Of a stretch of 42,589 nucleotides of DNA, positions 12,109-38,344 are shown piece after piece. This DNA is from Nitrosovibrio sp. Nv17. Lineage in GTDB: Bacteria > Pseudomonadota > Gammaproteobacteria > Burkholderiales > Nitrosomonadaceae. The stretch spans positions 1 to 42,589 of the forward strand of contig NZ_FPIQ01000009.1 of assembly GCF_900119085.1 (NCBI RefSeq), written 5' to 3'. Both the position numbers and the translations under genes were made by a program. Positions within the stretch are counted from its first letter, which is position 1; every line of letters starts with the position of its first letter. Below the pieces are notes generated by a model. It made no database searches and was not told the DNA's origin. It saw only the letters and a list, made by a program, of their open reading frames with translations.

Positions 12109-12180
12109 AGTGGATTCAAACGGGGGCCTGTGGAAGCTTGTTTCGTGGCTGCGTTGCTGCGCAAAAAAGTAGCAGGGATA

Positions 12181-12704
12181 GGATGAGTGGAGCGCAACGC
12201 AAGCCATCGCTTGTCCAGGGCGGCGTTTGATGGGTTACGCGTTGCTCCACCCATCCTGCGGATGGGGCGGATAGCGGGTGGGATGGTTGGAGTGAAACGG
12301 AACCCATCGCTTGTCCGGGGCGGTGTTTGATGGGTTACGCGTCGCTCCACCCATCCTGCGGATGGGGCGGATAGCGGGTGGGATGGTTGGAGTGAAGCGC
12401 AAGCCATCGCTTGTCGGGGGCGGTGTTTGATGGGTTACGCGTTGCTCCACCCATCCTACGGATGCGGCGGGTAGTCGGTAGCCGGTAGGACGGGTGGAAT
12501 GAAATGCAACCCATCCATCGCTTGTCCAGGCGGTGTTTGATGGGTTACGCGTTGCTCCACCCATCCTGCGGATGCGGCGGGTAGTCGGTAGTCGGTAGGA
12601 TGGGTGGAGTGAAACGGAACCCATCGCTTGTCCGGGGCGGTGTTTGATGGGTTACGCGTCGCTCCACCCATCCTGCGGATAGGGCGGGTAGCGGGTGATG
12701 CGTT
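12181..12704. repeat. Tandem block of ~100-110-bp repeats with palindromic core
   Basis: Units beginning GATGGGTTACGCG start at 12229, 12329, 12429, 12539 and 12646, giving periods of 100, 100, 110 and 107 bases. Each holds the palindrome core (GATGGGTTACGCGTTGCTCC ... CCCATCC), a GGATGGGGCGG or GGATGCGGCGG spacer, a second arm GGATGGNTGGAGTGAA and the CCATCGCTTGTC segment. A partial unit opens the block at 12181. The core is the same family as the dispersed repeats, here amplified head to tail. It fills most of the gap between the PEP-CTERM gene and amoC; translations of this block are repeat artefacts. Confidence 0.9.
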
Positions 12705-12838
12705 TTCTCCCTGGGACGCCGATCGGGAAAATACCGGCTGCCGGCAGCGGGAAGGGCATCCCCGCCGGATTGCACGAACATAGGTGGTATGGCCAGCCAT
12801 TATGACGGAAAATCCGGCGGCGCGAGAGCCGAAGGAGG

Positions 12839-12904: not shown

Positions 12905-13714
12905 TCAGATCCGGTTCAGGATGGCCCTGCTCTGGCGATTCCAGACCACGTCGGTCAGGTTGGAGAAGCGGGTGATCATCTGCGCCGCGATGCCGCCCGC
13001 GAACAGGCCCGACCAGCTGAGGATCACGAAGCCCCAGTGCAGCGGTGCGCTGAACAGTTCCTCCATGAACCAGAAGGCGTGGCCCCACTCGTTGAAGCCG
13101 ACGTTGGGCAGGATCATCAGCGGGCCTGCGATCGCCATCACCAGCGGGAACGAGGTGCCCCGCGCGTACAGCGGCAAGCGGGTCTTGGCGTACAGGAAGG
13201 TGGCCACGCCGCAGGTGATGTACATCGGGAAGGAGCCGTAGAACACGACGATATGGCTGGGGGTGAAGCTGGTGTCGCGGATGATGACCTGGTGCCACGA
13301 GGCATCCTGCTCGGTGAAGAAGCTGCCGCCCCAGTAGACGCCGAAGAGGTAGATGCCCGCCCACATGAGCAGATAGAAGTTGCGCTTGATCTCCAGCTTG
13401 GGGTCGAGATTGTCCAGCTGCTCCATGGTATCGCGCGTTTTCCAGATCCAGCCCCAGGTGACCAGGGCGAAGATCGGCATGACGATCATGTGCACCCGCC
13501 ACAGGCCCATCCAGACCTTCTCGAACTCGGGTTCCATGGAATCCATGCCATGGGAATAGGCGAAGGTGCGCTGGTACCAGACCCAGAATATTGCCACTGC
13601 CAGCATCGCCAGCAGTCCCATCTTGTAATACCTCGAATCGTACCACAGCGACATGCCGTGGTCGCGATCCGCTTCGACAGTTGCCGCCCTGGCGGCTTTT
13701 AATGTCGTTGACAT
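12905..13714 (-). CDS. amoC: Ammonia monooxygenase subunit C (orphan copy)
   Basis: A 269-aa integral membrane protein, full length for AmoC and very like the Nitrosomonas/Nitrosospira protein: [92 protein letters not shown]. The copper ligands known from PmoC/AmoC are intact (Asp137, His141, His154). Several membrane helices are visible. AmoC is part of the copper monooxygenase that oxidises ammonia to hydroxylamine. No amoA or amoB flanks it, so it is a singleton copy like those in betaproteobacterial ammonia oxidisers, where they are linked to stress or recovery. Start ATG 13714 is preferred over ATG 13720 since GGAGGT abuts the latter and lies 6 bases before the former. Confidence 0.95.
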
Positions 13715-13752
13715 TTTCATACCTCCATTTCGTCTCGTTGAGAGAATTGCTG

Positions 13753-13841
13753 CTGGACGGATGTTCAGAGTCCGAATAACCGGCATTGCGCCGCTGGACA
13801 GGTACTCAGAGTCCTATACACTGGACGAGTGGTCAGAGTCC
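13753..13841 (-). promoter_or_regulatory. Three copies of a 21-bp element upstream of amoC
   Basis: CTGGAC-N6-TCAGAGTCC (as read on the plus strand) occurs at 13753-13773, 13794-13814 and 13821-13841, with the 6-base spacer length kept exactly while the spacer sequence differs. Each copy carries GGAC and GTCC half-sites, so it may bind a dimer. The copies start 41 and 27 bases apart and the nearest ends about 40 bases from the amoC start. Probable operator or activator sites; no known factor is recognised. Confidence 0.55.
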
Positions 13842-14666: not shown

Positions 14667-16226
14667 TCAGGGAACACGGAAATTCATCATGTTGATCCTG
14701 TGCTTCTTCAGCTTGGAGTAAACGGCCCGTGGCGTGATACCCATGCCCTCGGCGACTTTCCTCACGCTGCCGGCGTGCTGTTTCAGGGCTGTCTCGAGGA
14801 ATGCTTTTTCCATCTTGCTGACAGTCTGCTCCCTTTCGTTCCTCCAGTCCTCCCCATGCCGGCTCCTGACCGGCAGCTCCAAGTCCAGCTCGGTCATTTC
14901 CCTGCCATCGACGAACAGGATGCTGCGTTCCAGAGCGTTCTCCAGTTCACGGACATTGCCCGGCCAGTGATAGGCCCGGATTTTCTTCATGACTTCGCGG
15001 CTGACCGATTCCACCTGTTTGTTGTACCGCTTGTTCAGGCGCTGAACGATCAGCTGCACGAGATAGGGCAGATCCTCCGGCCGTTCCACCAGCGGGGGGA
15101 TGCCCAGGCGCACCACATTGATGCGGTAGTAGAGGTCGTTACGGAACAGGTTCCGCTTCACGAGCTCTTCCAGGTTCTGATTGGTCGCCGAGATGATTCT
15201 TACATCAACCGCGCGTGTCTGCCTGCCTCCGACCCGCTCCAGCTCCCCTTCCTGAATCACGCGCAGCAGCCTGGTTTGCGCTGCCGGAGACAGGGAATCG
15301 ATCTCGTCCAGGAACAGGGTGCCGCCTTCGGCCCGCTCGAAATAGCCCTGGTGCACCTCAATGGCCCCCGTGAAGGCTCCTTTTTCATGCCCGAACAGAG
15401 TACTCTCGATCAGGCTCTCGGGAATTGCCCCGCAATTGATCGCGATGAATTCCTTGTGGAAGCGGTCGCTCATCGCGTGTATGGCGCGCGCCACCAGTTC
15501 CTTGCCGACGCCGGTCTGGCCCTGGATCAGGACCGTCGCCAGGGTAGGCGCCACAACCTCGACCGAATGCAGTATTTTCTGCATCGCCGGCGATTTCGCG
15601 ACGATGGCGGGAGGATGATGCTTCTCCGAGACCGCCTTGTTCTTCTTGTGCCAGAGCTTCTGCATGCTGCTCTCTATGCGGCTCTGCAACGCCTTGGCAT
15701 CGCTGATCTGCTTCACCGGCGTGGTGTCGGTGTATTCCATTCCATGGTGTTCTTTCGCCGTCTGCGGATTGGTATGGATGGATACATCGCACCTGCCGTG
15801 CCGGCATGCGATGCTTTTCTTGATGTCCACCTTGGCATAGCCGTAATTCCTGGCGGCGATGCCGCCGAACACGCTGGACGTCATCCTGCACAGTTCGGGG
15901 AAGCGGGTGACCCGCTCGCCGAAGGGACAGCAGGTGTTGGTGACGGTGATGCAGTCCTGGTTGCTGGAGACCAGCAAAAAATTCCCGCCGATGTTGTTCT
16001 TGATGCCGAGTATCAACTCGACATAGCTCTCGGTGTCGAGCCGCTCGCTCTTGCCGGTGTTTTCCCGATAGGTTTCTTCGAAGAAGCAGCCTGCGGTTTG
16101 AGCGATGTGCTCGATGAGCTGCTCGCAATGCTCCTGCCCCTGCTGTTCGCTGGCGTGCATGAGTTCGAGGATGAAGGTCTGCAGGAAGAAATCCGGCGTC
16201 AATTCGGAAAGAGGATCGTTGCTCAT
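14667..16226 (-). CDS. Sigma-54-dependent activator with Cys-rich MetOD1-like sensor domain
   Basis: About 519 aa. Residues ~1-165 form a sensor domain with a Cys-rich core (NTCCPFGERVTRFPELC, then IACRHGRCDVSIHT) like methanogen output domain 1 (MetOD1)/V4R-type domains. A linker leads to a full AAA+ module: Walker A GQTGVGKE, GAFTGA loop for sigma-54 contact, Walker B GGTLFLDEID, RNDLYYRINV and WPGNVRELENALERS. A Fis-type HTH (GSVRKVAEGMGITPRAVYSKLKKHRI) ends the protein. It activates RNA polymerase with sigma-54 and lies divergently from a near-consensus sigma-54 promoter driving the sulfur genes, its likely target. Five conserved-looking Cys suggest sensing of redox, metal or sulfur species (inference). 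An alternative start is ATG 16259; neither has a good ribosome binding site. Confidence 0.88.
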   Translation of the reverse strand: MSNDPLSELTPDFFLQTFILELMHASEQQGQEHCEQLIEHIAQTAGCFFEETYRENTGKSERLDTESYVELILGIKNNIGGNFLLVSSNQDCITVTNTCCPFGERVTRFPELCRMTSSVFGGIAARNYGYAKVDIKKSIACRHGRCDVSIHTNPQTAKEHHGMEYTDTTPVKQISDAKALQSRIESSMQKLWHKKNKAVSEKHHPPAIVAKSPAMQKILHSVEVVAPTLATVLIQGQTGVGKELVARAIHAMSDRFHKEFIAINCGAIPESLIESTLFGHEKGAFTGAIEVHQGYFERAEGGTLFLDEIDSLSPAAQTRLLRVIQEGELERVGGRQTRAVDVRIISATNQNLEELVKRNLFRNDLYYRINVVRLGIPPLVERPEDLPYLVQLIVQRLNKRYNKQVESVSREVMKKIRAYHWPGNVRELENALERSILFVDGREMTELDLELPVRSRHGEDWRNEREQTVSKMEKAFLETALKQHAGSVRKVAEGMGITPRAVYSKLKKHRINMMNFRVP

Positions 16227-16341
16227 GGAATGCGGGAAACATGTGAAATCGGATTTCATTCATTGAAGCACGGCTTCTCGGATATCGCAAGAATTGAAAT
16301 GCAAGACATTGAAAAAAAGAAGGAATGTTTTTGGCACAAGG

Positions 16342-16357
16342 TGGCATGATCCTTGCA
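16342..16357 (+). promoter_or_regulatory. Sigma-54 (-24/-12) promoter of the sulfur operon
   Basis: TGGCATGATCCTTGCA matches the consensus TGGCACG-N4-TTGCW at every fixed position except one (T for C). GG and GC have the required spacing. Transcription would start near 16368, about 120 bases before the first gene. The divergent neighbour encodes a sigma-54 activator, which supports function. Confidence 0.85.
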
Positions 16358-16487
16358 TCGGATTACTTCACCGCAGGACGTTCGCGGTGGAACGGGCTGC
16401 CGGGCCGACCGGCGGCCGAGCCTGGCAAGAATCAGATCACTTCGAGCAAGTGATGGACCGAAACCTTATTAGCGAGGAGACTCAAAA

Positions 16488-17141
16488 TTGAAAACTCTCC
16501 AGGAAGATCTGAGCGCCCGCGTGGCGGCCTATGACCATTGGTCGCAGCGGCGCCGCCACGGGCCGGATGGCGCCAACAACCGCAGGCTGTGGGTGCTCGC
16601 CTGCATGGACGAGCGCCTGCCCGTGGATGAAGCGCTGGGCATTCGCGTGGATACCCCTGCAGGAGGTGGGGATGCGCATTGCTTCCGCAATGCCGGGGGC
16701 ATCGTCACCGATGATGCGATTCGATCGGCGATGCTGACGTGCCATTTCTTCGGTACCAGGGAAATCGTCATCGTGCAGCACACGCAGTGCGGCATGCTGT
16801 CGGCGAACGCATTCGACCTGGAGAAGTCGCTGCGGGCGAAGGGGATCGATCCCGACAGCGTCCAGATGGATCCCACGCTGCCGGAATTGAAGCTGGAGAA
16901 GGGTGCGTTCGCCAAATGGATAGGGATGATGGATGACGTGGACGAGGCCTGCATGAAAACGATAGAGACGTTCAGAACCCATCCCCTCATCCCGAAGGAT
17001 GTGGTCATCAGCGGCTGGATCTGGGAGGTCGAGACACGCCGGCTCAGGGCGCCGACGAAGGACGCCGCGAAGCGCGCCAGGACCGACGCCACTTCGGCCC
17101 AGTTCGGCATCGGGGAAAGGCAGCCACGCCGCTGGAACTAG
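16488..17141 (+). CDS. Beta-carbonic-anhydrase-fold hydrolase, possible COS/CS2 hydrolase
   Basis: A 217-aa protein of the beta-carbonic anhydrase superfamily. Zinc site residues are visible: Cys39, Asp41 and Arg43 in ACMDERL, and His98/Cys101 in HTQCGML. Motifs RNAGGIVTDDAIRS and HPLIPKDVVISGWIWEVETRRL also fit. Its size is close to carbonyl sulfide hydrolase of Thiobacillus thioparus (about 219 aa), and it is followed by genes for sulfide and persulfide oxidation. I infer hydrolysis of COS (or CS2) to H2S plus CO2; plain carbonic anhydrase activity is the alternative. Start TTG 16488 is unusual but has GAGGAGA 7 bases before it and fits the family start. It is the first gene after the sigma-54 promoter. 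Confidence 0.85.
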   Translation: MKTLQEDLSARVAAYDHWSQRRRHGPDGANNRRLWVLACMDERLPVDEALGIRVDTPAGGGDAHCFRNAGGIVTDDAIRSAMLTCHFFGTREIVIVQHTQCGMLSANAFDLEKSLRAKGIDPDSVQMDPTLPELKLEKGAFAKWIGMMDDVDEACMKTIETFRTHPLIPKDVVISGWIWEVETRRLRAPTKDAAKRARTDATSAQFGIGERQPRRWN

Positions 17142-17145
17142 ATTC

Positions 17146-17172
17146 GTGGGGCGGGATTGCCGCGGCTGCCCC
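17146..17172 (+). other. Intercistronic hairpin in the sulfur operon
   Basis: GTGGGGC (17146-17152) pairs perfectly with GCCCCAC (17166-17172), 4 bases after the stop of the hydrolase gene. There is no T-run, so it more likely affects transcript processing or stability than ends transcription. Confidence 0.35.
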
Positions 17173-17241
17173 ACGGGGCCGCCGCATCCAGCGGGTTGCC
17201 GCATGTTCCGCCGATCAGCGATGAAAATGAGATTGCTCTAG

Positions 17242-17496
17242 ATGCCGACCTATGACTATCTGTGCAGCAGATGCGATGCCCGGTTCGAAGCGCGCCGTCC
17301 GATCCCCGCGCCCAATCCCGCCTGCCTGGCCTGCGGAAATCCGACGGAAAAGATCATTCTTTCCGCTCCCGCGATACACGGTGAAATGACACGCGGGCGT
17401 GAGGAGGCCATACGTTCGCTTCATCCGGGGACTGGATCGGGGGGGCACGGGCATCCTCCGGGATGTGGATGCGGAGATTCCCACGATCACGCTTGA
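17242..17496 (+). CDS. FmdB-family zinc-ribbon protein
   Basis: An 84-aa protein starting MPTYDYLCSRCDARFE, the standard beginning of the FmdB/CxxC_CxxC_SSSS regulatory-type zinc ribbon. Two CxxC knuckles (Cys8/Cys11 and Cys28/Cys31) would bind one zinc; TEKIILSAPAIHG follows as in the family. The C-terminus is rich in Gly, His and Cys (GGHGHPPGCGCGDSHDH), possibly a second metal site. FmdB proteins sit beside amidase, formamidase and one-carbon or sulfur genes, with unclear function. It lies 100 bases after the hydrolase gene in the same direction. Confidence 0.88.
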   Translation: MPTYDYLCSRCDARFEARRPIPAPNPACLACGNPTEKIILSAPAIHGEMTRGREEAIRSLHPGTGSGGHGHPPGCGCGDSHDHA

Positions 17497-17592
17497 AGGC
17501 CGGCGCCGCCCCGTTCCGCATCCGGGGCCGGAGGATGTCTTCTCCATCCCCGGGCGCACGGGACGGCCAGAAACATGACAGGAGGGAAGCGG

Positions 17593-18456
17593 GTGACGAC
17601 ACCCCATATCAAGGCATTCTTCGATCCCGCCACATCGACGCTGAGCTACGTCGTCCATGACGGGCCGGGGGGCGGCTGCGCCATCATCGATCCGGTCCTG
17701 GACTACGAGCCAGGCTCGGGAAGGAGCAGTACGGCTTCCGCGGACGTCATGGCCGCCTTCATCGAGGAAAACCGCCTGAAGACGGAGTGGATCCTGGAGA
17801 CGCACGCGCACGCCGATCACCTGACCGCCGCGGATTACCTCAAGGGCCGATTGGGCGGCGCGACGGCCATCGGCGAGAGAATCCCCCGAGTCCAGGAAAC
17901 GTTCAGGAAGATTTTCAACCTGGGGGATGAATTCACGCCGGACGGCCGACATTTCGATCATCTGCTCGCCGATGGGGAAACATTCAAGATCGGCAGGCTG
18001 ACGGCGACCGCGCTCCTGACGTCGGGACATACCCCCGCCGATCTCTCATACCGGATCGACGACGCGATTTTCGTGGGCGATACGATCTTCATGCCGGATC
18101 TCGGAACCGCACGCACCGATTTTCCGGGCGGGGATGCCCGCCAGCTGTTCCGGTCGATCCGCCGCCTTCTCGCCCATCCAGCCGGAACGCGTCTGTTCAT
18201 GTGCCACGACTATGCGCCGGCGGGCCGTCCCGTGCGCTGGGAGACGACCGTGGCCGAACAGCGTGCCCACAACATTCACGTGCGGGACGGCATAGGGGAG
18301 GATCGGTTCGTGGCCATGCGCGAGGCGCGGGACGCCACGCTCGCAATGCCCACCCTGCTGCTGCCGTCGCTCCAGATAAACATCCGCGCCGGCAGATTCC
18401 CGCCGCCCGAGGGCAACGGGGTTTCCTACCTGAAGATACCGATGAATGCCGTCTGA
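17593..18456 (+). CDS. Persulfide dioxygenase-like metallo-beta-lactamase-fold protein
   Basis: A 287-aa MBL-fold protein of the ETHE1/Blh type. It begins IKAFFDPATSTLSYVVHD, has the metal motif THAHADHL (His71, His73, Asp75, His76), then LLTSGHTPADLSY and FVGDTIF, and MCHDY near the end. The family oxidises glutathione persulfide to sulfite with O2 using a mononuclear iron. The C-terminal stretch LPSLQINIRAGRFPPPEGNGVSYLKIP is typical of the Blh group. Start GTG 17593 is chosen because AGGAGG lies 7 bases upstream and the family begins just there; ATG 17575 would include the ribosome binding site. It is third in the sulfur operon, before the sulfide:quinone oxidoreductase that supplies persulfide. 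Confidence 0.9.
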   Translation: MTTPHIKAFFDPATSTLSYVVHDGPGGGCAIIDPVLDYEPGSGRSSTASADVMAAFIEENRLKTEWILETHAHADHLTAADYLKGRLGGATAIGERIPRVQETFRKIFNLGDEFTPDGRHFDHLLADGETFKIGRLTATALLTSGHTPADLSYRIDDAIFVGDTIFMPDLGTARTDFPGGDARQLFRSIRRLLAHPAGTRLFMCHDYAPAGRPVRWETTVAEQRAHNIHVRDGIGEDRFVAMREARDATLAMPTLLLPSLQINIRAGRFPPPEGNGVSYLKIPMNAV

Positions 18457-18600
18457 TGCCCAGGGAGAGACGGCGGTGGAAGGGCGATCCACGGCTCTTC
18501 CCCCCGGACGCGGATCGGGGAAACGCGGTCGGGCCGGCCCGGCGCATGCATGCGGGCAGGCTGGAGGCGGTTCAGGAACTCAAAGGCGGAGGACGTTGCG

Positions 18601-19887
18601 ATGACCCGGAAAGCCAGGAACGGTGCATTATCCCAGAGTGGCGCGGGCCCCGAGGCCGCCGCGTGCGACCGGAATTTCGACGTGGTCGTGGTGGGCGGGG
18701 GCACGGCGGGGATAGGCGTTACCGCCAGCCTGCTGCGACGACGGCCTTCGCTGCGCATCGCGATCGTGGAGCCTGGCGACAGGCACTACTACCAGCCCGC
18801 CTGGACGCTCGTGGGGGGCGGCGCATATGACATCGGGAAAACCGTGCGGCCGATGGCGAGCGTCATTCCGGAAGGCGCCGCCTGGATACAGGCGAGGGCG
18901 GACGGCTTCTCGCCGGAATCCAATCTTGTTCATCTGGCGGACGGCGGCTCGGTGGGCTACGCGCACCTCGTGGTGTGCCCCGGCCTGCGGCTTGCCTGGG
19001 AGCGGATCGAAGGGCTGGAGGATACGCTGGGCAAGAACGGCGTCACGTCCAACTACAGTTTCGATCTGGCTCCCTACACCTGGTCCCTCGTCAAGGCGCT
19101 CAAGGACGGCAAGGCGATCTTTACCCAGCCCCCCATGCCCATCAAGTGCGCAGGCGCCCCCCAGAAGGCAATGTATCTGTCCTGCGACCATTGGCGGCGG
19201 CAGGGGGTCCTCGGCAGGGTCGGGGTGGAATTCAACAGCGCCGCCCCGGTGCTGTTCGGTGTGGCGGCCTTCGTCCCGCCCTTGATGGAATACGTCGCGC
19301 GGTATCACGCGAATCTCGTGTTCCATTCCAATCTCGTCAAGGTGGACGGGCCGGGAAGGATCGCCTATTTCGATATTCGCCGGGAGGATGGAAGCACGGA
19401 AAGAACGGCGAAGTCCTTCGACATGCTGCATGTGACACCGCCCCAGATGCCCGTTGATTTCGTGCGCAACAGTCCACTGGCGGATGCCGGCGGCTGGTGC
19501 GAGGTCGACCATGAAACGTTGCGGCACTCCCGCTATGGAAACATTTTTTCCCTCGGGGATATCTGCTCCGCACCCAACGCCAAGACTGCCGCCGCCGTCA
19601 GGAAGCAGATCGTCGTGGTTGCCGAGAACTTGCTGGCCCTCCGGGACGGCAGGGAAATGCCCACGTTCTACGATGGATACGGTTCCTGTCCGCTGACGGT
19701 CGAGAAGGGCAAGGTGGTGCTTGCGGAATTCGGATTCGGCGGCAAGCTGCTGCCCACTTTCCCTCTCGATCCTGCGGTTCCACGCTACCTGGCCTGGCTG
19801 CTCAAGGCAAAATTCCTGCCGTGGTTCTACTGGCACGGATTTCTCAGGGGCCGCGAGTGGTTCGCGCGTCCCACCGATACCCGCTGA
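18601..19887 (+). CDS. sqr: Type II sulfide:quinone oxidoreductase
   Basis: A 428-aa FAD protein. FDVVVVGGGTAGIGVTASL is the dinucleotide-binding loop near residue 30, and FSLGDICSAPNAKTAAAVRKQ is the C-terminal FAD contact. PIKCAGAPQKAMYLS and GSCPLTVEKGKVVLAEF carry the two cysteines that form the active-site pair in type II (SQRDL/HMT2-like) enzymes. It oxidises sulfide at the membrane, passing electrons to quinone and sulfur to an acceptor as persulfide. The C-terminus (WLLKAKFLPWFYWHGFLRGREW) is amphipathic, fitting membrane attachment. Start ATG 18601 has GGAGGA 7 bases upstream. It lies between the persulfide dioxygenase and the TauE/SafE gene. Confidence 0.92.
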   Translation: MTRKARNGALSQSGAGPEAAACDRNFDVVVVGGGTAGIGVTASLLRRRPSLRIAIVEPGDRHYYQPAWTLVGGGAYDIGKTVRPMASVIPEGAAWIQARADGFSPESNLVHLADGGSVGYAHLVVCPGLRLAWERIEGLEDTLGKNGVTSNYSFDLAPYTWSLVKALKDGKAIFTQPPMPIKCAGAPQKAMYLSCDHWRRQGVLGRVGVEFNSAAPVLFGVAAFVPPLMEYVARYHANLVFHSNLVKVDGPGRIAYFDIRREDGSTERTAKSFDMLHVTPPQMPVDFVRNSPLADAGGWCEVDHETLRHSRYGNIFSLGDICSAPNAKTAAAVRKQIVVVAENLLALRDGREMPTFYDGYGSCPLTVEKGKVVLAEFGFGGKLLPTFPLDPAVPRYLAWLLKAKFLPWFYWHGFLRGREWFARPTDTR

Positions 19888-19907
19888 ACGTTGTGCCGGT
19901 CACTGCG

Positions 19908-20735
19908 ATGGCGGTACTGTTCGGGATCCTGGTCGGGGGCATACTCGGACTGACTGGCGCGGGGGGGACGATCGTCGCCGTTCCGCTGCTGGTGTTCGGC
20001 CTGCAGCTGCTGGTGAAGGAGGCCGCTCCCGTCGCCCTGCTGGCGGTCAGCGTATCGGCCGCCATCGGTGCGCTGATGGCGCTGAAGCAAGGGAAGGTAC
20101 GATACCGGGCAGCGGCATTCATCGCCTTTACCGGCGCGCTGGCGTCGCCGGTGGGCGTCCATGTTGCCCAGATGTTGCCGGATGTGGTGCTGAATTTTCT
20201 GTTTGCGGCGGTGCTCGGCTATGTTGCGTTCAGGATGTTCAGACAGTCCGGCCATTACCCCGTCCATTCCGCGGAGATTTCCGCTGGACGTCCACCGCTC
20301 ACGCCATGCCAGATCGACGATTCCAGCGGGCGTTTCGTCTGGGACGCGCGTTGCGCGCGATCGCTGGCGCTCTCGGGCCTGGGGGCGGGCTTTCTCTCCG
20401 GCCTGCTGGGAGTGGGGGGCGGATTCATGATCGTACCCGCGCTTCAGAAGGCCACGCTGCTCTCGATGCAATCCATCGTCTCTACTTCCCTGGCCGTCAT
20501 CGCACTGGTATCCGCCGCGGGTACCGCACCTGCGATCCTGAACGGGAGCATGAACTGGCAGATCGCCTTGCCTTTTACGGCAGGCACGGTAGCGGCGATG
20601 CTGGCGACCGGCAGGTTCGCGCGCCGCTTCTCGGCCCAGCGGCTGCAGAAGGGTTTCGCCACGCTTGCGGTAGCCGCTGCGATCGGCATGATGGGCAAGG
20701 TCTTGGCGGCGCTGATCGGGCTCACGGCTGAGTGA
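19908..20735 (+). CDS. TauE/SafE-family transporter
   Basis: A 275-aa membrane protein with about eight hydrophobic segments in two halves. Each half opens with the family's Gly-rich motif: GILVGGILGLTGAGGTIVAVPLL and GAGFLSGLLGVGGGFMIVPAL. TauE/SafE proteins export sulfite or sulfonates. Here it directly follows the sulfide oxidation genes, so export of sulfite made by the dioxygenase is the likely role. The start is uncertain: ATG 19908 is given, but GTG 19893, 5 bases after the previous stop, is possible; neither has a clear ribosome binding site, suggesting translational coupling. Confidence 0.88.
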   Translation: MAVLFGILVGGILGLTGAGGTIVAVPLLVFGLQLLVKEAAPVALLAVSVSAAIGALMALKQGKVRYRAAAFIAFTGALASPVGVHVAQMLPDVVLNFLFAAVLGYVAFRMFRQSGHYPVHSAEISAGRPPLTPCQIDDSSGRFVWDARCARSLALSGLGAGFLSGLLGVGGGFMIVPALQKATLLSMQSIVSTSLAVIALVSAAGTAPAILNGSMNWQIALPFTAGTVAAMLATGRFARRFSAQRLQKGFATLAVAAAIGMMGKVLAALIGLTAE

Positions 20736-20805: not shown

Positions 20806-20954
20806 AAGGTGGCGGAGGAGGTCGGGTGATGATGGTGCGCATGCGGCAATCGGTCCCGCCGGCGCCGGGTCGCGCGACGGTGCCTGGACGAGGGGGCGAG
20901 ATCCTCGAGGGGGCCAGCAGGTTTTTATCAATGCCAAGCAGGAGGAAAACCAGT

Positions 20955-22004
20955 ATGAATGACAATTTGTCTGTTGCCCGATTCTGTTCCGTGTCGCTGC
21001 TCGCCATGCTGGCGTGCGGCATCTCCCACGCGATGCCGGGCATGCATGGCGGCGGGGATGCGAACGCCGCCGAGCCTCCCAAGGCATCGAGGAGCATGGG
21101 TGAACCGATCAATTCGCCCGGCTCGGAAATCGAGATCACCTACAGCGCCGACGGCAAGACCGCCATTTTCGTCTCCACCCGCGAAGGCAGCATCGCATCT
21201 CCCGGAAGCCCCTACAGCTTCGACATATGGATGTCCCACAACGTGGACGGGCACTGGCAGCCACCCATTCATCTGGGGCCGGGCATCGACCCGGCTGTGG
21301 GGCCGGACATCAACACCGGCGCGTGGGAACTGGAGCCGAGCTTCTCCGATGACGGGAATGTCATCTACTTCACGAGGTATGAACCCGGCAACCTGCTGTC
21401 GGGGGATCTCTATGCCGTGCAGAAGATCGATGGCGTATGGCAGTCCGCCCGGAACTGGAACGACGTGCCGGAGCTTCCGAGCATCAACACGCCCACCGGC
21501 GAGGAACACTGCCCCATCATCGTTTCCGACAGCCTGATCTATTTCAACTACAGCCAGCCGGGCGTCACGCAGGAGAGCGACATCTGGAAAGTCGAGAAGA
21601 GGGATGGGGCATGGCAGAAACCGGTGAGCCTGGGGCCGAAGATCAATTCGCCGCAGCGCGACCACATGCACTGGACCGGCGTGTCGAAAGATGGCAAAAG
21701 CATGCTCGTCACCAGTACGCGGGTCGATCCGGATTCCCGGGGCGGGCACGATATGTGGATTTCGCACCAGGATGCCGAGGGAGAATGGCAGAAACCCGTG
21801 AACCTTGGCGACGCCATCAACACGCCCGGGGAGGAAATGTGCTGGACCTTCACGCCGGATGGAAAGACGCTGACCGGCAGCTGGGGGCCGCACAATACCT
21901 TCGATACGGATATCCGCTGGATCAGCAAGGAGGATATCCCCCTGCTGCAGGATTTCGAGCCCATCGGACCGCCTCCCAATCTGCTCGCCAATAGCGGCGG
22001 CTGA
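20955..22004 (+). CDS. Exported PD40/TolB-like beta-propeller protein
   Basis: A 349-aa protein with a signal peptide (ARFCSVSLLAMLACGISHA, cleavage near residue 26) followed by a short His/Met/Gly-rich stretch (MPGMHGGGDAN). Repeated PD40-type blades are visible: YSADGKTAIFVSTREG, FSDDGNVIYFTRYE, VSKDGKSMLVTSTRVD, FTPDGKTLTGSWG, each followed by a DIW or DMW strand. This predicts a periplasmic or outer-membrane-linked beta-propeller; the ligand is unknown. Start ATG 20955 has AGGAGG about 9 bases before it. It is 220 bases after the TauE/SafE gene, so it may be a separate unit. Confidence 0.85.
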   Translation: MNDNLSVARFCSVSLLAMLACGISHAMPGMHGGGDANAAEPPKASRSMGEPINSPGSEIEITYSADGKTAIFVSTREGSIASPGSPYSFDIWMSHNVDGHWQPPIHLGPGIDPAVGPDINTGAWELEPSFSDDGNVIYFTRYEPGNLLSGDLYAVQKIDGVWQSARNWNDVPELPSINTPTGEEHCPIIVSDSLIYFNYSQPGVTQESDIWKVEKRDGAWQKPVSLGPKINSPQRDHMHWTGVSKDGKSMLVTSTRVDPDSRGGHDMWISHQDAEGEWQKPVNLGDAINTPGEEMCWTFTPDGKTLTGSWGPHNTFDTDIRWISKEDIPLLQDFEPIGPPPNLLANSGG

Positions 22005-33897: not shown

Positions 33898-36057
33898 TCA
33901 GAAATTGGCGATGAAGCTGACCCGGAAAGAGCGGCTTTCGATGGGATGGAAATGCCTGTCGTCAACACCGCCTGTGGGTTCGCCCGGCAGCCTGGAGGTA
34001 TAGAAGTAGTCGATCGCATGAGCATGCGTGTTGAGTAAATTGAATCCTTGCAGGATGACCCGGGCTTTCTTACCTATTTTTACGCCTATCTGGCCATTGA
34101 AGGTCATGGTGGGATTCGACTGGACACTGTTGTCTTCCGTCAAAGGACGCTTTCCAAAATAGCGGAACTGCAGGCTGCCGAAGAAGGGGCCGATGTTGTC
34201 GAGCGCAACCGTCGCCTTGCCCACGCCCTGGATTGCACCCGGAATGTGATTGCCTGCGGGATCCTGGCCCGTGAAACGTGCCTTTGCCAGAGCATAATCC
34301 AGATCCACCATCAGCCAATCGTTCGGCATGTAGAAGGCCGAGACCTCGACTCCCTCGCGTTTGCTGGGACGACTGGGCTCGGTGGTGCCGGCATCGCCAA
34401 CGAACAGCAACTCCGAGGCCATGTCCAGCCGGAAAAAAGCCAGAGAGGCCTGCAGTCCCGGCAGGATCGCGGTGCGCAGTCCGAATTCATATCCGGTGGA
34501 GCGGACGAGCGGATTGACCGGAGTGACCGCCGTCCCTGATTTCGGGTCTATCGTCGTGGTGGTGCCGCGCGCATCGTTGCTATGGAAGCCGCTCCCATAG
34601 TTGAAGTAATACTCCGTCTTGGCCCATGGGCCGAAGATCAGGCTGAGCTTGGGGTTGGTGATGCTGTCGTACTGCTGCCCAGAATTGGCGCCGATGTTGC
34701 TTTTGACATCGAACCAGTAGTAGTCGCTGCGCACGCCCGCCACGCTGCGGAATTTTTCCAGCCACTGCACGCTGTTCTGATAATAGATGCCTATGCTGTT
34801 TTCAACCACATGATCCCTGCGGGTGACCGACAGCGCCTGCCGCTGTCGGGTATTCAGCAGGCCGTTGTCGATGACATCGTTCTGAAACTGGACGCCTACG
34901 GTATTCTCGAGCGCGAAACCGGCAAAATTGTTCACCCAGGCATGACTCAGGTTCAGGGCGGACTGGAAGCGCTTGTCGATCTGGGAAAACTGGTCGCCAT
35001 TGACAGGGTCGTCGAGGAAATAGGTGAAATTCGAAAACAATGCCATGTTGTTGTGAACCGTATAAAGATTCACCTTGGTAATGCCGTAATCCCCGTGGTG
35101 CTGCAAGGCCCCCGACAGGCTGAAACGGTGGGATTCGCCGCCATCGCTGGGATCGATGGCCCCCAGCCGTGAGATGAGGCCATTCAGGACGGCACGCTCG
35201 GGAATCTGGTCGGTGGAGTTCCAGTTCGCGCCGTATCCCATGGCGGTTATATTGAACCGGGGACTGCCGGTATCTTGGCTGTAGCGCAGCACGGCATTGA
35301 ATTTCTTGTAGTTTTCCTTGGTGACCCATGGACCGTCCTTCTTGTTCAGTTCGACGGCATAAAGCACCGTTCCGGCGCCCACATCATGGGAATTCGCGAC
35401 CAGGCCGCGCATGAATCCCTGGTTGCCTACCCCATAGCTGGCAATTCCTGTCGGCAATTTGTTGACATAGCCGATATTGAGGGCGCCCGCCGAGGAGAAG
35501 TCGCCCTGGTCCGCGTAGTAGGGACCCTTCTGGTACTGGAGGCCGGCGGCAAGTTCCGGGATCATGAAATTGAGATCGGCGTAACCTTGCCCATGCCCAT
35601 GGCTGCGCTGATTGACCAGCATGCCATCCACCGATATCCGCAGATCGGTGCCGTGATCGAGATTGAAGCCGCGAGCGAAATACTGGTTCGCCTTCCCTTC
35701 CCCGCTGTGTTGAGTGACGATCAGTCCCGGTACCGTCTCCAATAGCTCTCCCGGCCGGTAGACGGTGCGCTGGTCGAGCTGTTTCTTCAGTACCGTGCCT
35801 TCATTGGCGGAATTCGCGGTCCCGATGAGGTCGTTGCTCTTGGCCGTCACCACTACTTCCTGCAGGGTGGGCACCCCCGCGGCGCGGGGGTGGGATGGCC
35901 AGCCGGTGGCCAACGCAGCCAGCAGGGCCGCCGTGAAGGCTGGGGTGCCCGGAGATCGATGCCTGCGGTGCAGAAGCCCATGGGCAGGACGACAGTGCGA
36001 ATGAGGGCCGTCCCATGGGGGTGAATCCGCCAGGAATCGTTTTAGGAGATGGATCAT
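33898..36057 (-). CDS. TonB-dependent outer-membrane receptor
   Basis: A 719-aa receptor. A long N-terminal lead precedes the likely signal peptide core (TPAFTAALLAALATG); TLQEVVVTAKSN is the TonB box, then the plug (PGELLETVPGLIVTQHSGEGKANQYFARGFNLDHGTDLRISVDGMLVN ... FSSAGALNIGYV) and a beta-barrel ending in the usual Phe (FRVSFIANF). The motif QRSHGHGQGYADLNFMIPEL and His-rich loop occur in receptors of unknown or metal-linked ligand. The start at 36057 has only a weak ribosome binding site, and a start closer to the signal core is possible. It lies 37 bases after the stop of the other receptor gene, so they form one operon ending at the terminator. Confidence 0.9.
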   Translation of the reverse strand: MIHLLKRFLADSPPWDGPHSHCRPAHGLLHRRHRSPGTPAFTAALLAALATGWPSHPRAAGVPTLQEVVVTAKSNDLIGTANSANEGTVLKKQLDQRTVYRPGELLETVPGLIVTQHSGEGKANQYFARGFNLDHGTDLRISVDGMLVNQRSHGHGQGYADLNFMIPELAAGLQYQKGPYYADQGDFSSAGALNIGYVNKLPTGIASYGVGNQGFMRGLVANSHDVGAGTVLYAVELNKKDGPWVTKENYKKFNAVLRYSQDTGSPRFNITAMGYGANWNSTDQIPERAVLNGLISRLGAIDPSDGGESHRFSLSGALQHHGDYGITKVNLYTVHNNMALFSNFTYFLDDPVNGDQFSQIDKRFQSALNLSHAWVNNFAGFALENTVGVQFQNDVIDNGLLNTRQRQALSVTRRDHVVENSIGIYYQNSVQWLEKFRSVAGVRSDYYWFDVKSNIGANSGQQYDSITNPKLSLIFGPWAKTEYYFNYGSGFHSNDARGTTTTIDPKSGTAVTPVNPLVRSTGYEFGLRTAILPGLQASLAFFRLDMASELLFVGDAGTTEPSRPSKREGVEVSAFYMPNDWLMVDLDYALAKARFTGQDPAGNHIPGAIQGVGKATVALDNIGPFFGSLQFRYFGKRPLTEDNSVQSNPTMTFNGQIGVKIGKKARVILQGFNLLNTHAHAIDYFYTSRLPGEPTGGVDDRHFHPIESRSFRVSFIANF

Positions 36058-36094
36058 CGTTCCGTGTGGCCCGTGTGGCCTCTTCTGCAGAATT

Positions 36095-38344
36095 TCAGAA
36101 CTTGAATGAGATGCCCCCCAGTACCGTCAGTGGGGCGGCGGGGTTGTAGGTGCGGACTCCGCTGGTGATCCCCGCCGACGAGGCGTAGCGGTGGTCGGTG
36201 AGGTTGAGTATCTGCACGAAGTAGCGTTGCCGGATGCTCCAGGGCTGGGCCTTGGGTTCGTAGCTCGCGATCAGGTCCACCGTCTCGTAGCCGTCGTAGA
36301 ATGCCTGGGGCTGGGTGGCGGTGGGCAGGTTGATCGCGTAGCGGCCGAAGATGCGCCCGATGGCGGTGACCGTCAGGCCTTCCATGGGACGCACTGTGCC
36401 GGTGAAGGTCGCCATCAGCTTCGGCACGCCGGTGACGTCCGCCCCGATCAGGTGGGGCTGCAGCGATTCGGTGATGCGCGAGTTGAAGTGGGCGATTGCC
36501 GCGGTGGCCTCGAACCAGTCCGCCGGCATGAAGCGGACTTCCGCCTCGGTGCCGATGCGCTTGGTCCTGCCGACGTTGACGTAGTTCAGCAGGGCGGGAT
36601 TGGGCAGCGCTACCTCGTCTTTGCTCTCGATCTGGTAGTGGGCCACGTCGAACATCCACATCTTTCCGGGGGTCAGCGTGAATCCCAGTTCCATCTGCCT
36701 GAAGGTGGTGGGCTTGACGTTGACGCCGGGCGTGTACTTCGCCGCGTCGCTCGGCAGGGCGAACCCCTCCGACAGGCTGAGGCGCGCCTCCAGCAGCTTG
36801 GGCCAGAGCGTGGAGCGGAAGCCGAATTTCGGGGTGGTGATGTCGAAGTTCTGCATCTCGCCGCATTCGGCGCTGGCGCCGGTGCGGGTCTCGAGCCCGC
36901 GCCGCTTGCACCAGCCATCGATGAGATCCTTGCGGATGCCGAAGGAGGGCCGGAAGTAGGGGCTGAGCGCCCATTCCGTCTGCGCGAACATGGAGACGTA
37001 GTTGGTCTTGAGCAGGCGGTTGAGGGTGCCGCTGCCGCCGTTGACGCCGCCGGTGACGGTGTTGGCGGTCCACTGGCCGTTGTTGAGGGCGTCGGCGTAC
37101 TTGTACAGCGTGCTCTCCTCGTAGCGCTCCGCGCCCAGCGTCCAGGTGAGGGGCCGCTTCAGGATGTCGTGCCGGCCGTTGATGCTGGCCCCGAAGCCGA
37201 TCACGTCGCGGTCGTACTCCTCCTGGCGCTGCTGCCAGGTGGTGGCGTTGGTCAGCCGGGTGAAGGAACGGCGGAACGTCTGCGTGGTGGCGTAGCCGAA
37301 CAGCACGGCCTTGATGTTCGGCGTGATCTCGTGGGACAGGTCGCCGCGCAGGGTGTAGAGATCCTTGTCGGTGCTGTCGTTCATGACGTTGGGATCCCTG
37401 GCGTAGAAGGCCTTCTGGCTGTGGCGGTTGTCATATTGCGCCTGCGTCACCACCGACGCCGTCTTCGCCTCGCCCGCGTGCGCCCGGCCGGCGATGGTGA
37501 AGCGCGTCTTGTCGGTGATGTTGTAGCCGAGGCTGAGCGATCCGGTGTGGCGCTGGTTGTCGGTGCCGGGGCGGAAGCCGTCGCTGCGGAAGCTCTGTAC
37601 CGCTGCGTTGATGTCCACGCCGTAGAGGTTGCCGCCCGCAGCGGCCTGTACGTCGACGGTGCCGAACGAGCCGCCGCGCACGTCCAGCTCGGCGTACTTG
37701 CCGGATCGGCGTGTCTCCAGCATGACCACGCCGGCGCGGTTGAAATTTCCGTAGAGGGCGGAGACCGGCCCCTTGAAGATGCGCATGGCGTTGATCTCGA
37801 GCGGTATGATGACGCCCATGTCGGCGTAGCCGTCGGCGTGGCTGGAGGCCTCGTTCAGCGGAATGCCGTCGACCACGAAGCCGATGTCGCCCCCATGGCC
37901 TCCCCCGGAGAAGCCGCGCAGGTTGGTGGAACTGGCGACGCTGCCGTAGCCGAGATGGCGCACCTCCATGCCGGCGGTCTCGCGGAACAGGTTCTCCAGG
38001 TTGGAGACCTGCCGCTCGGCGATGAAGTCCTTGTCGAACACGTGCACCGTGAAGGGCTGGTCCTTGCTGACCGTGAGCGATTGTCCCTTGATGACGAGAG
38101 GCTCGAGCCGGACGACGTTCTCGCGGGTGAAGGCGTCGTTGACTGCGACCTGGACGGGAGCGGAGCCTGCCGAGGCTGCCTCGGGCGCCTGCGATGCCTG
38201 TGTTTCCCCTGTTTTCCGTACGGCTTTCTTCTTGCCGTCTGCAGTGGCGGCTTCGGCCGGCGGGGATTCCTGCGCCTGCACCGGCAGGGCGGGCAGGAGC
38301 AGGGACGCCAGCGCGCATACCTGCAGGGGTAGCCTCATCATCAT
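36095..38344 (-). CDS. TonB-dependent outer-membrane receptor
   Basis: A 749-aa receptor with a clean signal peptide (MMMRLPLQVCALASLLLPALPVQAQ), a linker rich in Ala, Glu and Lys, a TonB box (EPLVIKGQSLTVSKD), a plug (VSNLENLFRETAGMEVRHLG ... NLRGFSGGGHGGDIGFVVDGIPLNEASSHADGYADMGVIIPLEINAMRIFKGPVSALYGNF) and a barrel ending GGISFKF. No STN signalling domain is seen. It resembles siderophore receptors, but the ligand is not known. Three in-frame ATGs start the gene; AAGGAGG is best placed for the second (38341). First in the receptor operon. Confidence 0.92.
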   Translation of the reverse strand: MMMRLPLQVCALASLLLPALPVQAQESPPAEAATADGKKKAVRKTGETQASQAPEAASAGSAPVQVAVNDAFTRENVVRLEPLVIKGQSLTVSKDQPFTVHVFDKDFIAERQVSNLENLFRETAGMEVRHLGYGSVASSTNLRGFSGGGHGGDIGFVVDGIPLNEASSHADGYADMGVIIPLEINAMRIFKGPVSALYGNFNRAGVVMLETRRSGKYAELDVRGGSFGTVDVQAAAGGNLYGVDINAAVQSFRSDGFRPGTDNQRHTGSLSLGYNITDKTRFTIAGRAHAGEAKTASVVTQAQYDNRHSQKAFYARDPNVMNDSTDKDLYTLRGDLSHEITPNIKAVLFGYATTQTFRRSFTRLTNATTWQQRQEEYDRDVIGFGASINGRHDILKRPLTWTLGAERYEESTLYKYADALNNGQWTANTVTGGVNGGSGTLNRLLKTNYVSMFAQTEWALSPYFRPSFGIRKDLIDGWCKRRGLETRTGASAECGEMQNFDITTPKFGFRSTLWPKLLEARLSLSEGFALPSDAAKYTPGVNVKPTTFRQMELGFTLTPGKMWMFDVAHYQIESKDEVALPNPALLNYVNVGRTKRIGTEAEVRFMPADWFEATAAIAHFNSRITESLQPHLIGADVTGVPKLMATFTGTVRPMEGLTVTAIGRIFGRYAINLPTATQPQAFYDGYETVDLIASYEPKAQPWSIRQRYFVQILNLTDHRYASSAGITSGVRTYNPAAPLTVLGGISFKF

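Follow-up and report, generated by a model that had tools for sequence, protein, structure and literature searches.

A predicted CS2 hydrolase operon under a putative sigma-54 switch in an ammonia oxidizer

The CS2 hydrolase family and the FisR-type operon are both known; what is new is that ammonia oxidizers combine the two behind a conserved switch. We describe this arrangement in Nitrosovibrio sp. Nv17 (family Nitrosomonadaceae), within a 42,589-nucleotide stretch of its 2.84-Mb genome (the window; contig NZ_FPIQ01000009.1, forward strand). Judged from its sequence, a 217-aa protein encoded there is a CS2 hydrolase, not a COS hydrolase (COSase) or a carbonic anhydrase (CA). We consider it reasonably likely that the locus is an inducible operon for the detoxification of the volatile CS2 (and COS), with sulfide clean-up, in a Nitrosospira-like soil ammonia oxidizer. 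Searches of open PMC full text yielded no report of a CS2 hydrolase operon in nitrifiers among the matches listed (subscription papers lay outside their scope) and no paper on COS hydrolase with ammonia oxidizers.

The ORF list, Pfam and NCBIfam recovered the gene order and coordinates given by an earlier sequence-only reading of this DNA, with every gene in its place. A sigma-54-dependent activator on the minus strand (14667..16226, long ORF to 16259; Pfam: MetOD1/V4R-like sensor, AAA+ and Fis-type HTH) diverges from plus-strand genes for the CS2 hydrolase homolog (16488..17141, 217 aa, beta-CA fold), an FmdB-type zinc ribbon (17242..17496, 84 aa; PF09723, TIGR02605), a persulfide dioxygenase (PDO)-type (ETHE1/Blh-type) metallo-beta-lactamase protein (17575..18456), a type II sulfide:quinone oxidoreductase (SQR; 18601..19887) and a TauE/SafE-family exporter, presumably of sulfite or thiosulfate (19893..20735; PF01925, 149.8 bits). 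The starts at 18601 and 19893 are our choice and probably correct. Downstream of TauE lies a PD40 beta-propeller protein (20826-22004), a homolog of which occurs near the hydrolase in 7/80 loci, two of them methanotrophs. The adjacency of amoC (12905-13786, above its curated cut-off) had been read as meaningful; amoC was sought in the other 109 loci and matched in none (1.5 to 8 kb of flank per locus, often on short contigs), and we reject the linkage because this neighbor is not conserved in relatives. Beside amoC, minus-strand ORFs at 12116-12781 contain, by eye, several copies of a motif like RRMGGATRNPSNTA, which suggests a DNA repeat array. Two large adjacent minus-strand ORFs at 33898-38344 resemble TonB-dependent receptors (by eye).

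Identity of the hydrolase

The best solved match of the 217-aa protein was the Acidianus CS2 hydrolase 3TEN (E 6.5e-51), versus E 4.4e-18 for the COSase 3VQJ, on par with carbonic anhydrases. In a tree of 44 rows, the bacterial proteins, 3TEN and a haloarchaeal relative formed one clade (100/99), with COSase elsewhere. Three long-branch rows (the beta-CA of the same genome, 5ZTP and a Mycobacterium plasmid protein) were left out of this tree, and a quick tree that included them agreed (SH-aLRT 99). Constraining the bacterial CS2 hydrolases to group with COSase was rejected with moderate strength (AU p 0.027); for the choice between 3TEN and the haloarchaeal protein as their nearest relative, p was 0.387. 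The sequence-only reading had favored a COS/CS2 hydrolase over a carbonic anhydrase, and grouping with 3TEN rather than with carbonic anhydrases bears this out, as do the motifs.

Residues C39, H98 and C101, which we take from family knowledge to be the Zn ligands, and the D41/R43 pair were invariant in 78/78 close homologs (70% or more), all of which share the motifs CMDER, HTQCG and Phe-Phe. The last of these, Phe87-Phe88 in the window, is also present in 3TEN (FFGT in 77 of the homologs, FFGS in 1), versus LL or QL at this position in COSase and three CAs; among four distant alignment rows, three have LL and one ends short there. PMC6382920 calls the Phe-Phe motif characteristic of CS2 hydrolase. 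An AlphaFold model (pLDDT 83.5) retrieved 3TEN as Foldseek rank 1 (TM 0.68, rmsd 6.4). The window protein also carries P26-D27 and TPAGGG (positions 56-61), which presumably correspond to insertions reported for the Acidithiobacillus thiooxidans S1p enzyme. CS2 hydrolases are characterized by splitting CS2 and COS without hydrating CO2 and by assembly as an octamer ring or a 16-mer catenane; that of S1p reportedly forms rings, not catenanes.

Clade, Zn ligands and Phe-Phe motif are thus shared with the Acidianus A1-3 CS2 hydrolase (3TEN/3TEO), as is the fold (3TEN). Unlike the enzymes of Acidianus A1-3 and A. thiooxidans, that of the window sits in a nitrifier, in a putatively switchable operon with FmdB, PDO, SQR and TauE. 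The Thiobacillus thioparus THI115 COS hydrolase (3VQJ) shares fold and Zn site with it but falls in a separate clade and has LL where the window has FF. The proposal of a COS/CS2 hydrolase therefore stands for fold and hydrolase class, and the clade is that of the CS2 hydrolases; we reject a THI115-type COSase on match scores, motifs and tree, and an ordinary carbonic anhydrase on motifs and tree. Some loci hold both enzymes side by side: in L093, L099 (6531-7253) and L105, a COSase gene lies ~0.6-0.75 kb upstream of the CS2 hydrolase. The L099 COSase matches 3VQJ at E 1e-116; L105 has no ORF of 150 aa at this position, so that copy may be broken.

Conserved core, switch and sulfide-oxidizing tail

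From the 112 relatives returned by a contig scan we used the best 80 (72-85% identical). Carriers among these 80 included Nitrosomonas, Nitrosospira, Nitrosovibrio, Methylobacter, Methylomonas, Sulfuricella, Sulfuriferula, Thiobacillus, Thiocapsa, Thiohalobacter, Pseudonocardia and others. Within 6 kb of the hydrolase, FmdB was found in 76/80 loci, the activator in 73/80, SQR in 13/80 (12 of them at ≥69%, the other at 25%), TauE in 11/80 and PDO in 6/80, all lower bounds given short contigs, in loci selected by the hydrolase. Because SQR, PDO and TauE are missing from most of these relatives, the conserved unit comprises the hydrolase, FmdB and the activator.

The sulfide-oxidizing tail goes with nitrifiers, where SQR is mainly found: 10 of the 12 good SQR loci were labeled Nitrosomonadaceae, and the others (L040, L059) are MAGs with other labels, L040 having the same contig position as a family genome (G040). 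This fits the host, in whose genome the locus holds the sole SQR match. That SQR matched mitochondrial SQR (6mp5/6oi5) at E 5e-102, in support of the type II class that had been proposed, although NCBIfam gave a type III selenoprotein SQR as best model, well short of its cut-off (162.9 of 525 bits). The dioxygenase scored 381 bits against NF040641, below the 625 cut-off, aligning to positions 140-422 of 423, so that it has no N-terminal part of Blh; its PDB matches were 9g8t, 4ysk and 4efz, with a weaker one to the persulfide dioxygenase ETHE1 4chl. Homology thus upholds the proposed route from sulfide through persulfide to sulfite and export for the window, but not as a general trait of the hydrolase loci.

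Presence of the hydrolase is patchy. In the nitrifier family of the window it was detected in 36/125 genomes at 1e-20 (one, G066, a fragment only) and in 7/23 genomes of the genus, and nitrification therefore does not require it. Nitrosospira briensis Nsp8 (L038) is one nitrifier with the operon. Among 300 sampled genomes of the order, 14 matched at 1e-20, with 11 reaching 6.1e-49 or lower; the window and family members account for four of the 11, leaving a close homolog in 7 of at most 291 genomes outside the family. In the family of the methanotroph Methylomonas koyamae (G416), 103/237 genomes matched at 1e-20, but no more than 13 (one with a split gene) had ≥69% identity, the remainder being 30-40% relatives. 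A general tie of the hydrolase to copper monooxygenases is weakened by this figure (13/237 versus 36/125 in the nitrifier family) and by the many sulfur oxidizers among the carriers.

The unit probably moves: on a Methylobacter plasmid, the hydrolase, zinc ribbon, a ZIP transporter, the sigma-54 regulator and a cupin lie together with insertion sequences nearby. A Mycobacterium paragordonae plasmid (L149, 8001-8843) encodes a protein 69% identical to the hydrolase, with neither FmdB nor a sigma-54 activator among its annotated neighbors. Decaying copies were also seen: a hydrolase remnant and truncated activator beside SQR/TauE (L127) in a nitrifier with two full copies (G034), and a split hydrolase gene in a genome of the methanotroph family (G560).

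The -24/-12 promoter TGGCATGATCCTTGC (16342..16356, plus strand), one mismatch from consensus as first noted, gains its weight from relatives. Within the window the motif is not beyond chance (15 matches at ≤2 mismatches versus 19 expected), whereas sites scoring 18 or more occurred in 68/79 distinct upstream regions (including that of the window) versus 1.7% of shuffles, a count that near-copies inflate, as only identical regions were merged. The genome has one rpoN copy. Tandem 17-bp palindromes, GTGAA-N7-TTCAT and TTGAA-N7-TTCTC (16243..16279), start 20 bp apart and end 62 bp before the promoter. They scored 18 or more of 20 in 23/75 upstream regions versus 0/750 shuffles; lower scores prevailed in regions with the more distant activator, and many of these show, by eye, a related GGAAG..CTTCC form. 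In its complete form the pattern is found a single time in the genome, with one further site at one mismatch, and is a probable activator binding site. Sigma-54 control under one activator, as proposed earlier, is thus supported at the sequence level by a conserved promoter and dyad site; a scan for sigma-70 promoters and terminators gave nothing above chance. The predicted 5' leader (16368..16487, plus strand) follows from the promoter position and was aligned in 18 loci. Most of 16 folded nitrifier-type leaders show a small stem-loop at the predicted RNA start (16368-16390 in the window) whose letters differ while pairing is kept in several (by eye); most folds are not significant singly, and the minimum-energy fold of the window leader is another hairpin.

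The activator probably starts at ATG 16226 (519 aa), the position at which those of relatives (L040, L041, L123) begin, which would place the presumed binding site between the genes. In its sensor, C111, C124 and C157 (long-ORF numbering) were invariant in 53/53 regulators. DmpR, PoxR and MopR have the same domain order. Their V4R sensors resembled the sensor model (pLDDT 80.5) weakly (TM ~0.5, E near 1e-3 to 1e-2), behind TRAPP/Bet3 proteins, which came first, and some designed and H-NOX proteins matched as well; this is a hint at the fold and no proof of ligand binding. The window activator differs from these regulators in its Pfam family (MetOD1), and its sensor profile had zero matches to PDB sequences. 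Among the 300 order genomes, 13 sensor matches were found: all 10 strong matches (E below 1e-35) came from hydrolase carriers, and the three weak ones (32-33%) were in frames of 184-199 aa, one in a genome with a hydrolase fragment (G168). In the nitrifier family the activator occurred in 40/125 genomes, comprising 33/36 hydrolase carriers and 7/89 others. The hydrolase-bearing G006, G066 and G107 gave no activator match, and the hydrolase contigs of G006 and G107 (~5 kb) were read and lack it.

Proposed function and rival explanations

We propose that CS2, or the sulfide formed from it, is the signal for the activator, which would bind the tandem palindrome and drive sigma-54 transcription from the conserved -24/-12 site. 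By the biochemistry of its family, the Zn enzyme would convert CS2 + 2 H2O to CO2 + 2 H2S with COS as intermediate. Homology suggests that SQR would turn the sulfide into thiol persulfide, the dioxygenase the persulfide into sulfite, and TauE would carry sulfite out of the cell; FmdB may, at a guess, handle zinc. The SQR and PDO assignments derive from solved relatives, and the operon logic from the Acinetobacter FisR work (PMC7315123), where FisR-PDO-SQR-TauE is a proven sulfide detoxification operon. The benefit would be removal of CS2, as an inhibitor of ammonia monooxygenase (AMO), and of the sulfide freed by its hydrolysis, a suggestion that draws on a title (Hyman 1990, in the reference list of PMC7170481) stating that CS2 inhibits AMO. 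PMC6091914 also names CS2 as one suspected cause of the inhibition of nitrification by thiosulfate. In vivo substrate, inducer and direction of benefit are what we infer from these pieces. Retention of the core across phyla and the single SQR of the genome count in favor of CS2 detoxification; against it count the scarcity of SQR, PDO and TauE in relatives, the absence of the hydrolase from most family genomes and the three hydrolase carriers without an activator match.

The locus might instead be a FisR-type sulfide or persulfide stress operon, with persulfide as the signal, sulfide clean-up as its main job and the hydrolase as a side gene. The gene content is indeed that of the Acinetobacter baumannii operon, in which a divergent sigma-54 activator precedes PDO, SQR and TauE; as described in PMC7315123, that operon is without CS2 hydrolase or FmdB, and its FisR is without the Cupriavidus cysteines. 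The likeness to the FisR system is one of gene content; the window sensor has three cysteines that are invariant within its own family. We think this explanation unlikely, since in the hydrolase-chosen loci the activator lies near in 73 of 80, far more often than SQR, TauE or PDO, and since 10/10 strong activator matches in the order sample are in hydrolase carriers. Use of CS2/COS for sulfur supply or as an additional electron donor, with electrons reaching the quinone pool via SQR, is less probable still: SQRs as a family do pass electrons to quinone and the same core occurs in the known sulfur-oxidizer genera Thiobacillus and Thiocapsa, but TauE suggests export of the product, and a dedicated switch with patchy presence would fit stress better. 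Barely credible, finally, is the view that the protein provides bicarbonate as an atypical carbonic anhydrase; it could appeal to the Pro_CA Pfam match (34.8 bits, above cut-off) but runs against tree and motifs and against another beta-CA in the same genome (127 bits).

A second module under the same activator type

An activator dedicated to the hydrolase only is ruled out by the family genomes with activator and without hydrolase: in 7/7 (L158-L164) it faces genes for DUF938, SDR, DUF1326 and PpoB2 (copper chaperone) proteins. Two methanotroph loci carry variants, L123 with a clade-D beta-CA inserted and L124 with DUF938 and SDR only. All 9 loci have palindromes scoring 17-20 of 20, a sigma-54 site at 17.7-20 of 20.7 and 61-63 bp spacing, as in the window, although L161 and L162 share an identical site, so that the nine are not all independent. 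In Methylobacter KS41 (L054) the second module follows the hydrolase and FmdB genes, and in L092 the two modules flank the activator on opposite sides. G089 has a second activator (L165), opposite which neither module occurs within the 8 kb read. No literature on the DUF938-SDR-DUF1326-PpoB2 module was found in open PMC full text.

An activator that also heads a hydrolase-free module may respond to a signal other than, or broader than, CS2, which again counts against CS2 detoxification. Tentatively, and as a doubtful extension of that preferred reading, the activator could head a two-module stress regulon in copper-monooxygenase bacteria (nitrifiers, methanotrophs). Module 1 would hydrolyze CS2 and clear sulfide; module 2 (SDR, DUF1326, PpoB2, the DUF938 protein, which may be a methyltransferase, and in some cases a clade-D beta-CA) would methylate or repair the damage that CS2 or its dithiocarbamate products cause at copper sites. 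If true, this would be a defense dedicated to protecting the ammonia and methane monooxygenases from thiocarbonyl poisons. The putatively switchable CS2 hydrolase in 36/125 genomes of the family makes it directly testable whether some nitrifiers resist such compounds and consume CS2/COS in soil. The locus also supplies candidates for the regulator, the promoter and the binding site, and the same switch ties in a second, uncharacterized gene module.
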